Assembly: GCA_021796215.1 (NCBI GenBank) | Contig: JAJYOK010000016.1 | Location: 1-64,000 of the forward strand | Direction of reading: 5' to 3' | DNA: 64,000 bases | Origin: Bacteroidota bacterium | Lineage (GTDB): Bacteria; Bacteroidota; Ignavibacteria; UBA10030; UBA8401 | Shown: in pieces, positions 33,153 to 53,317 of the stretch | How positions within the stretch are numbered: position 1 is the stretch's first letter | Layout: each line of letters opens with the position of its first letter | Notes under the pieces: generated by a model | Database searches by the model: none | Told to the model about the DNA's origin: nothing | Seen by the model: the letters and a program-made list of their open reading frames with translations, nothing else | Program-made: the position numbers and the translations under genes

Positions 33153-33310
33153 CTTCTCTATCTTCAATCAAGCAATGGCGCGGCAATAAAATGAGAGCAA
33201 CGTTTACAAATAATAGCTGCGTAAAATATATCTAATGAAAAGCACTCGGTCAACTGATGTTTTGAGTTCAGGGGAAATATGGAGAGAAGTCGAAAAGGAT
33301 TTTTTGTGAA

Positions 33311-33370
33311 ATCTAGAGGGTTCTCCGCCTGAGGCGGATGCGTCTTTGGCGCAGAATCTCTGACCTCCCG
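33311..33370 (-). pseudogene. partial tRNA-Val 3' copy with an interrupted T-loop
   Basis: Immediately 3' of the intact tRNA-Val is a second copy of its variable-loop/T-arm segment. On the minus strand GAGGTCAGAGATTC and GAACCCTCTAGA match the real tRNA (GAGGTCAGAGGTTC and GAACCCTCTAGA), but a 30-bp double hairpin separates them, exactly after TTC of the T-loop. The copy lacks acceptor 5' strand, D-arm and anticodon arm, so it cannot be a functional tRNA. Confidence 0.8.
33324..33353. repeat. 30-bp double-hairpin element in the tRNA-Val pseudo T-loop
   Basis: Two adjacent stem-loops on the plus strand: TCCGCC-TGA-GGCGGA and TGCGTC-TTT-GGCGCA. The 30-bp form in the tRNA-Thr array (45257-45286) agrees at 25 of 30 positions, and several differences occur in pairs that keep the stems. 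Confidence 0.8.
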
Positions 33371-33375
33371 TTTTG

Positions 33376-33450
33376 TGGGCTCTAGAGGGTTCGAACCTCT
33401 GACCTCTACCGTGTCAAGGTAGCGCTCTAAACCAACTGAGCTAAGAGCCC
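33376..33450 (-). tRNA. tRNA-Val (anticodon GAC)
   Basis: Complete cloverleaf on the minus strand: acceptor GGGCTCT/AGAGCCC, D-arm GCTC...GAGC, anticodon stem CTACC/GGTAG with loop TTGACAC (anticodon GAC), T-arm AGAGG-TTCGAAC-CCTCT, discriminator A. CCA is not encoded. A defective 3' copy follows five bases downstream. Confidence 0.97.
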
Positions 33451-44537: not shown

Positions 44538-44954
44538 ATGACTTTTCAACATTCCGTATTTGAAACCGAGCTTCAGGTTCGTCCGGACGATATTGACATG
44601 AATCAGCATGTTCACGCCAGCCGTTACATTGATTACGTGCTTGCCGCCCGCTACGACCAAATGGCACGCTGCTACAAAATGCCGATGGACGAATTTTTGA
44701 AACTAGGTTACGGCTGGGTCATCCAAGTCTCTCACATTGAATTTAAACGGCCATTATTGTTGGGAGATAGATTTGTCGTTAAAACTTCGATTGAAGAAAT
44801 TTTCAAGGATGGAGTGAAAGTTTCCTTCCGCATTGTGAAGAAAGAGACAGAAAAACTGATTTGTGACGGATATTTTCATTACACAATGGTGAGTTTGGAG
44901 AACGGACGAGCCGCGGCAATACCGGAATGGATCGCTCAGAAGTATTCGATATAA
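44538..44954 (+). CDS. 4-hydroxybenzoyl-CoA-thioesterase-like (hot-dog) acyl-CoA thioesterase
   Basis: Encodes 138 residues, a single hot-dog fold. The N-terminus has the family pattern VRPDDIDMNQHVHASRYIDY, in which Asp/Asn act in catalysis, followed by the long helix and strands GWVIQVSHIEFKRPLLLGDR. It probably hydrolyses acyl-CoA or acyl-ACP thioesters in the cytoplasm, as YbgC-type proteins do; the substrate is unknown. It is one of few plus-strand genes and reads towards the repeat array, whose first unit begins 2 bp after its stop. Confidence 0.88.
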   Translation: MTFQHSVFETELQVRPDDIDMNQHVHASRYIDYVLAARYDQMARCYKMPMDEFLKLGYGWVIQVSHIEFKRPLLLGDRFVVKTSIEEIFKDGVKVSFRIVKKETEKLICDGYFHYTMVSLENGRAAAIPEWIAQKYSI

Positions 44955-44955
44955 A

Positions 44956-45568
44956 TCAGAACCCACGTCCCGACCTTGTCGCGATTTCGAAACCTCTCAT
45001 GGTATAAAATGCTGGTGTGTGAGCTGAAGGTGGGATTTTGCGCCTGAGCGCATGAGCCTTCGGCTCAGAACCCACGTCCCGACCTTGTCGCGATTTCGAA
45101 ACCTCTCATGATATAAAATGCTGGTGTGTGAGCTGAAGGTGGGATTTTGCGCCTGAGCGCATGAGCCTTTGGCTCAGAACCCACGTCCCGACCTTGTCGG
45201 GATTACGAAGTCTCTCATGGTATAAAATGCTGGTGTGTGAGCTGAAGGTGGGATTTTGCGCCTGAGGCGTATGAGCCTTTGGCTCAGAACCCACGTCCCG
45301 ACCTTGTCGCGATTTCGAAACCTCTCATGGTATAAAATGATGGTGTGTGAGCTGAAGGTGGGATTTTGCGCCTGAGCGCATGAGCCTTTGGCTCAGAACC
45401 CACGTCCCGACCTTGTCGGGATTACGAAGTCTCTCATGGTATAAAATGCTGGTGTGTGAGCTGAAGGTGGGATTTTGCGCCTGAGGCGTATGAGCCTTTG
45501 GCTCAGAACCCACGTCCCGACCTTGTCGCGATTTCGAAACCTCTCATGGTATAAAATGATGGTGTGTG
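44956..45568 (-). repeat. tandem array of tRNA-Thr 3' ends with split T-loops
   Basis: Units start at 44956, 45065, 45174, 45284, 45393 and 45503 (period 109-110 bp) and run into the intact tRNA-Thr at 45569. On the minus strand each carries the tRNA's T-arm and acceptor 3' strand (CGTGGGTTC ... AATCCCACCTTCAGCTCAC). In the five copies away from the intact gene a 29-30 bp double hairpin splits the T-loop after TTC (plus-strand 45039-45067, 45148-45176, 45257-45286, 45367-45395, 45476-45505). Each unit also holds a CCCGACCTTGTCGGG hairpin or a variant. Open frames across the array are a by-product of the repeat and not genes. Confidence 0.9.
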
Positions 45569-45640
45569 AGCTGAAGGTGGGATTTGAACCCACGACCTGC
45601 GGTTTACGAAACCGCTGCTCTACCGCTGAGCTACTTCAGC
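45569..45640 (-). tRNA. tRNA-Thr (anticodon CGT)
   Basis: Cloverleaf on the minus strand: acceptor GCTGAAG/CTTCAGC, D-arm GCTC...GAGC, anticodon stem GCGGT/ACCGC with loop TTCGTAA (anticodon CGT), T-arm GTGGG-TTCAAAT-CCCAC, discriminator T. CCA is not encoded. It is directly followed by the tandem array of its own 3' end. Confidence 0.97.
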
Positions 45641-48662: not shown

Positions 48663-49745
48663 ATGTCATCATACGATTTCGAGATCGGACTCGATCTCCA
48701 TAAGGTTTTTTCTCTGCTTGCCACACTCGACCGGAACGGTACTTTTCTCGGATACCAACGCCTGGACAACAGCGTTGATGCCTTCGACAACTTTTTCGGG
48801 CAATGCAACGGATCGTTCCGTGTTACCTTCGAATGCTGTCCTAACTGGTATTGGGTCGCCGACTACTGTCAGGAGCACGCCATTCCTTTTATCCTTTCCA
48901 ATCCGTTACTCAACCGCGCCATTGCTCACGTCCATGCCAAGAATGATCGCTACGATGCACGCATGTTAGCCCACCTTGCCCAAACCGGACTGATTGCCAC
49001 ATGCTATGTTCCCGATAAAAACATCCGTCACTTACGAGAGTTGCTCTTTCACCGACTGAAGCTTCTTCAGGTCCGCACACGCTTCAAAAACCGTATTCAC
49101 GTCACTCTGATCAAATATAATTTCCAATCTCCCTATCAGTATATCTTTGGTCCTCATGGTATCCAGTGGATCCATTCCTGCAAGCTTCCGCCATTCATGG
49201 AACACAGCGTCTGCGAACTGCTTGAGTTAATTGCTGCACTGGATACTCATATTGAACACTATGATCAGCGCATCAGTGACCATATTCGGGACCATCCGTA
49301 TTATCAACTCCTGAGATCGGTTTATGGGATCGGCATAATTCACGCAGCTACCATCATCGCCCGCGTGGCTGACATTACTCGATTTCCCACCGTCCAGGGA
49401 TTTATCCGCTATGCCGGATTAGCTGTCAATACTCGGGCTTCTGCCGATAAACTCACCTATGGACATCTCATGCGGCAGTCCGATAAATACTTGCGAACCA
49501 GTTTCGTCGAAGCATCTCACTTAGTTATCCGCTACGATCCGGGATTACGTGCTTTTTATGATCACCTTGCAAAGCAGAAAGGACACGGTTGCGCCATTTG
49601 TGCTGTTGCCCGGAAATTAGCCCGGTCTGTGTACTTTATGTTAAAGAACTCGACTCCTTATCGTGTCCGTTCGATTCAAGGACAGTACGTGCAACAATCT
49701 CATCGCCTTTCCGTGCAGCCCGCGTCAGCGTCAAGCTCCGGTTAA
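48663..49745 (+). CDS. IS110-family DEDD transposase
   Basis: Encodes 360 residues preceded by AAAGGAGG. N-terminal RuvC-like DEDD domain: Asp in IGLDLHKVFSL, Glu in VTFECCPNWYW, and the Asp pair in KNDRYDARMLAHLA. A helical linker follows, then the C-terminal Transposase_20 domain: LLRSVYGIGIIHAATIIARV, FIRYAGLAVN, and a conserved Ser/Gly region (LRTSFVEASHLVIRYD). The family works as an RNA-guided recombinase with a bridge RNA. No frameshift is seen. Confidence 0.95.
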   Translation: MSSYDFEIGLDLHKVFSLLATLDRNGTFLGYQRLDNSVDAFDNFFGQCNGSFRVTFECCPNWYWVADYCQEHAIPFILSNPLLNRAIAHVHAKNDRYDARMLAHLAQTGLIATCYVPDKNIRHLRELLFHRLKLLQVRTRFKNRIHVTLIKYNFQSPYQYIFGPHGIQWIHSCKLPPFMEHSVCELLELIAALDTHIEHYDQRISDHIRDHPYYQLLRSVYGIGIIHAATIIARVADITRFPTVQGFIRYAGLAVNTRASADKLTYGHLMRQSDKYLRTSFVEASHLVIRYDPGLRAFYDHLAKQKGHGCAICAVARKLARSVYFMLKNSTPYRVRSIQGQYVQQSHRLSVQPASASSSG

Positions 49746-53002: not shown

Positions 53003-53317
53003 AACCCTGTACGCGTTTAGACAAACCCTGTACCGGTTTAGACAAACCCTGTACCCGTTTAGATGAACCCTGTACCCGTTTAGATAAACCCTGTACGCGT
53101 TTAGATGAACCCTGTACGCGTTTAGATGAACCCTGTACGCGTTTAGACAAACCCTGTACCGGTTTAGACAAACCCTGTACCGGTTTAGACAAACCCTGTA
53201 CCGGTTTAGACAAACCCTGTACCCGTTTAGATAAACCCTGTACCCGTTTAGATGAACCCTGTACGCGTTTAGATGAACCCTGTACCCGTTTAGATAAACC
53301 CTGTACCGGCTTAAATG
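53003..53317. repeat. 21-bp minisatellite, 15 units
   Basis: Fifteen head-to-tail units of AACCCTGTACGCGTTTAGAC plus one base, starting every 21 bp from 53003 to 53297. The core is ACGCGT, ACCGGT or ACCCGT, the first two being self-complementary, and the unit end varies between ACA, ATG and ATA. Two minus-strand frames stay open only because the period is a multiple of three. It lies 40 bp downstream of the tryptophanase stop. Confidence 0.95.

Follow-up and report, generated by a model that had tools for sequence, protein, structure and literature searches.

A tandem array of hairpin-split tRNA-Thr ends as the probable ORF-less remains of a tRNA-invading mobile element in a Bacteroidota bacterium

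Introduction

Mobile open reading frames (ORFs) that carry a gene end have been described in fungal mitochondria, at atp6 of Allomyces and at atp6, atp9, cox2 and nad3 of Glomus (PMC3630166). The order at these loci is the 5' core of the gene, the carried C-terminal end, the endonuclease, and the native end in its displaced position; the gene in use is a hybrid, and similarity to relatives is found in the native end (PMC3630166). Compared by architecture, these ORFs appear to be the closest analogue of the tRNA elements reported in this study, in which the order of carried end, endonuclease ORF, and displaced native end is found as well, albeit not at the ORF-free tRNA-Thr locus described first below. 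A native end resembling that of relatives beside a foreign end on the working gene was matched at one locus only, the tRNA-Thr gene of the sister genome G001. While the fungal ORFs occupy mitochondrial protein genes and encode, e.g., a LAGLIDADG endonuclease at atp6, the elements reported here occupy bacterial tRNA genes and encode a GIY-YIG endonuclease of about 85 amino acids. Unlike their fungal counterparts, they also have a hairpin-split displaced end, 5' variants, and tandem arrays.

SegB, which causes a tRNA segment of phage T6 to be amplified in tandem (PMC13096335), and the related homing endonucleases of phage T4 are likewise GIY-YIG proteins at tRNA genes (PMC2988022, PMC13096335). 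They are phage-borne and lie between tRNA genes, and a displaced, hairpin-split tRNA end is not described in the excerpts of their descriptions that were compared here. The tyrT/rtT repeats of Escherichia coli are another system of tandem repeats located 3' of a tRNA gene, each with a piece of the tRNA 3' end; to our knowledge, they contain neither a T-loop hairpin nor a nuclease. REP/REPIN sequences and the double-hairpin elements of fungal mitochondria, as far as the compared excerpts of their descriptions go, share with our loci the short palindromes, the two hairpins in a row, and the compensatory changes in the stems. A search of the openly licensed literature found no description of an element of the kind reported here, although the novelty is provisional, as subscription papers lay mostly outside that search.

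In this study, we analyzed a stretch of 64,000 nucleotides (the window) from a Bacteroidota bacterium (assembly GCA_021796215.1, contig JAJYOK010000016.1, positions 1 to 64,000), for which a preliminary description had pointed out an array of tRNA-Thr 3' ends with split T-loops, and compared it with the rest of the genome and with related genomes. We consider it probable (roughly 0.7) that this array is the ORF-less, tandemly amplified remains of a tRNA-invading mobile element, which would have entered by a route of cleavage and repair.

Results

The tRNA features of the window are as follows.

45568-45640, minus strand: intact tRNA-Thr(CGU), presumably the rebuilt working gene (ARAGORN; Rfam RF00005, 76 bits)
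44959-45585, minus strand: tandem array of intact 3' half, spacer, and decayed T-arm 5' half, then five units headed by a double hairpin (Tandem Repeats Finder and unit-by-unit reading)
45476-45505, minus strand: double hairpin insert 1, 30 nt, A type, in the T-loop
45367-45395, minus strand: double hairpin insert 2, 29 nt, B type, in the T-loop
45257-45286, minus strand: double hairpin insert 3, 30 nt, A type, in the T-loop
45148-45176, minus strand: double hairpin insert 4, 29 nt, B type, in the T-loop
45039-45067, minus strand: double hairpin insert 5, 29 nt, B type, in the T-loop
45514-45531, no strand assigned: CCCGAC/GTCGNG hairpin in the decayed anticodon arm, repeated in each unit (45404, 45295, 45185, 45076, 44967)
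33375-33450, minus strand: intact tRNA-Val(GAC)
33306-33367, minus strand: broken tRNA-Val 3' copy, with a double hairpin (33324-33353) that splits its T-loop

Because tRNA-Thr(CGU) lies on the minus strand, the array stands 3' of it. Tandem Repeats Finder delimited it at 44956-45585, with a period of 109, 5.8 copies, and 94% matches, and also reported a 219-bp dimer with 97% matches. Going outward from the tRNA, T-arm 5' halves terminate at 45586, 45506, 45396, 45287, 45177, 45068, and 44959. Along the first 80 bp, the 3' half that belongs to the intact tRNA is followed by a spacer and a decayed anticodon/T-arm 5' half; the copy nearest the intact tRNA indeed has no insert, as had been noticed earlier, because this segment (45506-45585) starts with the intact tRNA's own 3' half. 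The reported array of split 3' ends is real: in each of five tandem units, a double hairpin of 29 or 30 nt lies exactly between TTC and AAA of the T-loop and is followed by AAATCCCACCTTCAGC. The last T-arm 5' half, which reaches 44959, has no 3' half, and the far end is truncated at GTGGGTTC, where it abuts the end of a thioesterase-like ORF (44538-44954). The chance expectation was 0.19 for TGAGCCTTTGGCTCA and 0.23 for GTCCCGACNNNGTCGNGA, compared with 5 and 12 occurrences observed. Since the core sequences of the units alternate A-B-A-B, dimers were duplicated, and the alternating types argue against assembly collapse or a simple error in unit number (the read type of the assembly is not stated).

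The CCCGAC/GTCGGG hairpin reported for each unit is present and replaces part of the former anticodon arm, because the unit is a decayed copy of tRNA-Thr and not only of its 3' end. The clearest view of this copy is offered by the orthologous locus of the sister genome G002, where a single unit shows the order AGCGGTTTCGTAA (anticodon arm), TCCCGACAAGGTCGGGA, TGCGGGTTC, double hairpin, and AAATCCCACCTTCAGC. Neither an ORF nor the trace of one was found at the Thr locus of the window, which we count against its being an element. At tRNA-Val(GAC), the double hairpin differs from that of the Thr array and occupies the identical position of the T-loop, and the native downstream flank, recognized by its match to G001, follows the broken copy. 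Elsewhere in the window are a tandem array at 53003-53307 (21-bp unit AACCCTGTACCCGTTTAGATA, about 14.5 copies at 93%) and, at 48663-49745 on the plus strand, a 360-aa ORF that by eye resembles an IS110-type transposase.

Broken self-copies were sought within at most 600 bp of each tRNA in the same genome (46 tRNAs) and in the sister genomes G001 (45) and G002 (40). They stand alongside 13 of the 46 tRNAs of the window's own genome and alongside 3/45 and 7/40 in the sister genomes; a control with reversed flanks gave 0/131 over the three genomes. Hairpins interrupt these copies, or take the place of part of them, at the D-, anticodon, or T-arm. At six tRNAs of the own genome, a GIY-YIG ORF of about 85 aa separates the intact tRNA from the broken copy. 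For Asn, Pro-CGG, Pro-GGG, Ser-GGA, and Ser-TGA the broken copy is a 3' copy (the nuclease ORF of Ser-TGA is disrupted), and Leu-CAA is arranged in mirror image as broken 5' copy, ORF, and intact tRNA. Ser-CGA has both, in the order 5' copy (D-loop split by a double hairpin), nuclease frame interrupted by one stop, intact tRNA, and 3' copy (T-loop split by a double hairpin), the 5' copy being on contig C17, the end of which overlaps the end of C36. More generally, the ORF has the intact tRNA on one side and the broken copy on the other, and the tRNA end found in the copy corresponds to that side, i.e., usually the 3' end where the ORF is 3' of the tRNA and the 5' end where it is 5', and some loci have both. 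The Gly, Asp, Val-CAC, and Pro-TGG genes of the own genome have partial copies without an ORF, so that plain duplication is possible there, a point against a mobile element.

Two loci of this genome have tandem 5' copies with a hairpin in place of the anticodon arm. In the tRNA-Ala/tRNA-Pro region (L084), two tandem tRNA-Pro(CGG) copies stand upstream of the intact gene, and at L101 three tRNA-Ser(UGA) copies, 62 bp apart, stand upstream of theirs.

Islands that integrate at tRNA genes usually betray themselves by a second copy of the tRNA 3' end located downstream of the intact gene. The copies found here might on that account be attachment-site remnants of lost islands or prophages whose integrases used the tRNA 3' end. 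However, the elements measure only about 80-450 bp, with one nuclease ORF or none and no integrase, copies of the 5' end also occur, the copies are hairpin-split at D-, anticodon, or T-loops, and one nuclease query had no match in phage or plasmid collections; an origin from such islands is hardly credible. An integrase island was also rejected as a candidate on the content of the 20-450 bp between the intact tRNA and the repeated end, which is a GIY-YIG ORF or no ORF at all. One of two nuclease proteins had a weak 'endonuclease' match in PHROGs, and phage matches to the DNA were tRNA genes where annotated.

The distribution of the nuclease was followed with a profile (A2) built from eight of these tRNA-adjacent proteins; the loci of the own genome are therefore not independent of the profile, whereas those of other genomes are. 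The profile matched 52 of 60 relatives and 143 of 395 genomes sampled across the phylum (E <= 1e-18), many of the sampled genomes being drafts. A same-strand tRNA adjoins the nuclease ORF at 83 of the 92 loci sampled across the phylum (29/30, 19/22 in a further set, and 35/40 from lower in the match list); among the loci without one, several are truncated by the end of a contig. Broken copies accompany 28/29 and 31/35 of the tRNA-adjacent loci. In the same genomes, ordinary UPF0213-like GIY-YIG genes had a tRNA within 1.5 kb at 0/30 loci. The same layout was seen at single named loci in Patescibacteria, Kazan, Phycisphaerae, and Zixiibacteriota, and a Hydrogenedentota locus has broken tRNA-Asn copies on both sides; a scan of named genomes with a single protein gave 7 loci.

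The nuclease ORFs of the own genome match PF01541 above the curated cut-off, and an AlphaFold model (pLDDT 92.6) predicts a GIY-YIG fold closest to UPF0213 and SLX1, which are also the nearest solved structures by sequence and fold. SLX1 is a structure-specific nuclease that cuts branched DNA and acts with SLX4. UPF0213-type genes of the same genomes are not found at tRNAs, as the count above illustrates. The residues Y6, Y17, G19, R27, H31, and E63 are invariant in 25 of the nuclease proteins, which we take to fit the GIY-YIG active site. Orthologous ORF pairs gave dN/dS values of 0.07, 0.24, and 0.13, which, on substitution rates, show purifying selection. In a tree of 63 nucleases, tRNA identity requires 27 changes compared with 45.5 after shuffling (0/200 as low), and most Pro-GGG and most Pro-CGG elements form one group each that spans families. 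The Asn element of the own genome groups with full support with an Asn element of another family, and the Asn site is without an element in both sister species. Many forks in the tree are open because the alignment is short; as a phylogenetic pattern, the target specificity of the nuclease lineages by tRNA identity is shown nonetheless.

The hairpins were analyzed at 36 distinct splits. With 1-2 bases of ambiguity allowed, 25 of these reach into a D-, T-, or anticodon loop and 8 are located in stems, the latter counting against the interpretation as an element. The splits are exact and filled by hairpins, and folding was better than in shuffled sequences for 21 of 26 inserts. Among inserts at homologous positions in different genera, 98% of cells are paired, with 7 double changes and 0/500 shuffles as high; in dispersed hairpins, the positions left free by the search pattern are paired in 166/196 cases (shuffled mean 114, maximum 130). 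Folding and compensatory stem changes thus make the hairpins a real module. The double hairpin (TNNGCCnnnGGCNNA twice) is dispersed over 51 places in the own genome, e.g., L128:715, L116:711, and L106:759. As most of these are away from tRNAs, the double hairpin alone was rejected as the whole element. The earlier suggestion of a non-autonomous element that captures or recreates tRNA ends comes close to the comparative evidence, but the double hairpin is a module rather than that element, yet one that recurs as an insert in tRNA copies. Dispersed double hairpins are preceded by CTT(T/C), and some seem to be nested in the loop of another hairpin. A narrow test for a preference of dispersed copies for the loops of other hairpins was negative (p 0.18), and a wider test gave a modest effect (6/42 with flanking stems of at least 7, permuted mean 1.3, p ~0.003).

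REP sequences are defined by a tag, GTAG or CGTC, at the base of the hairpin (PMC3733652). REP/REPIN with RAYT was rejected, as the hairpins are flanked by CTT(T/C) and A/G and have neither tag, and none of the four Y1 transposase genes found is near the TNNGCC-type double hairpin. Group I introns and known RNA families were likewise rejected, since only tRNA models passed the Rfam cut-off at 17 loci and the window.

The split copies might alternatively be functional RNAs, tRNA-like molecules with selected hairpin arms that, e.g., process or terminate a tRNA-nuclease transcript, with the nuclease as a partner. Compensatory change that keeps the stems at homologous positions would fit such a role, as would splits that fall mostly in loops and leave the arms foldable, and one unit folds better than its shuffles (z -3.8). 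However, copies are truncated at either end and decaying (Val, Ser-TGA), many lack half of the tRNA, their number ranges from 0 to 6 between sister species, and the dispersed hairpins show the same covariation, which makes a functional RNA very unlikely.

Empty sites in sister species were used to locate the native flanks. The empty-site flank follows the broken copy at Asn (compared with G002, alignment 82 vs 15), Pro-GGG (G001, 182 vs 20), and Ser-TGA (G001, 118 vs 18), and on the 5' side of Ser-CGA it matches beyond the broken copy (159 vs 17). These alignments show that the native flank follows the broken copy and not the apparent working tRNA. The flank beyond the Thr array matches that beyond the single Thr remnant of G002. 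G001 was uninformative at the Asn, Ser-GGA, and Ala flanks, and Leu-CAA was weak. At tRNA-Thr of G001, the displaced end (ATCCCACCTTCAG) is identical to the type of G000, G002, G004, and G006, and the working tRNA has another acceptor and T-stem type that also occurs in G012 and G036; the working tRNA there thus carries an incoming sequence, with the native end displaced. As displaced and working ends are usually identical, a foreign origin is clear only at this locus, which counts against an element. Architecture, empty sites, and the foreign-type working tRNA with its displaced native end are features read from the sequences themselves. At the tRNA-Thr locus of G031 (L003), several successive tRNA-Thr remnants have different acceptor types, as if it had been invaded repeatedly.

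Ordinary tandem tRNA duplications by unequal recombination, hit later by dispersed REP-like hairpins and with the nuclease incidental, would offer another history. Insertions would survive only in the spare copy because the intact copy is needed, the double hairpin is a dispersed repeat, dimer duplication is visible in the arrays, and some broken copies have no ORF. Such a history is nevertheless unlikely, as at most loci the nuclease sits exactly between the intact and the broken copy, and few members of its family are found away from tRNAs. Moreover, the native flank adjoins the broken copy, on the 5' side as well, and different families share split positions and hairpin types.

Arrays comparable to that of the window occur with and without an ORF. 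After tRNA-Leu(CAG) of G285 (one contig), 450-bp units are repeated, each consisting of a tRNA 3' half after a CCTGCCTGCCGTCAGGCAGG hairpin, a spacer, and the ORF; this array is the ORF-bearing counterpart of the Thr array. ORF-bearing arrays were also found in G184, which has the 5' version, and G132. The ORF-less ones are the Thr array and Ala-CGC in G002, where three remnants stand compared with one in G000. Unit number, for which the preliminary description had proposed a check between strains, varies between species: split copies number 5 vs 1 at Thr and 1 vs 3 at Ala, which looks like ordinary amplification of scars.

Discussion

In the element that we propose, a complete copy would consist of one tRNA end, in most cases the 3' part but in some the 5' part, together with a GIY-YIG endonuclease of minimal size (about 85 aa). 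The nuclease would cut an unoccupied tRNA gene in or near the D-, anticodon, or T-loop, and repair from the occupied allele would insert the tRNA end, the ORF, and the hairpin at the cut. The native tRNA half on one side would then join the supplied half to give an intact tRNA, so that the cell survives, while the displaced native half would stay at the far end beside its own flank, hairpin-split and non-functional. The hairpins may mark where the cut takes place and protect the displaced half from being cut again, probably by destroying the target.

As the rebuilt tRNA would still hold the site, we propose that recutting or unequal recombination adds units. Amplification by recutting is plausible by analogy with SegB, and the arrays may also grow by plain unequal recombination. 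We infer that the Thr array once carried an ORF from the architecture, hairpin family, split position, and host genome that it shares with ORF-bearing loci. Those related loci, in which a GIY-YIG ORF separates the rebuilt tRNA from the hairpin-split, displaced end, look like the autonomous version of what remains in the window.

Taken together, it is fairly probable that the loci represent a widespread, undescribed class of bacterial mobile elements, in which minimal GIY-YIG nucleases specialized by tRNA type would cut and rebuild tRNA genes, leaving hairpin-marked scars and, as derivatives, ORF-less arrays. Short and essential, tRNA genes are usually regarded as places where much larger islands dock and which themselves stay passive. 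The element described here has one gene of about 85 codons, seems to reside within the tRNA gene, and seems to persist by rebuilding it. If true, this would account for tRNA copies split by hairpins and for many GIY-YIG genes next to tRNAs that otherwise lack an explanation, add a bacterial counterpart to the gene-end-carrying mobile ORFs of fungal mitochondria, and provide a set of small target-specific nucleases to test. It would also mean that the tRNA genes of many bacteria are repeatedly replaced by selfish DNA, and the rate at which incoming copies replace working tRNA genes would become testable.
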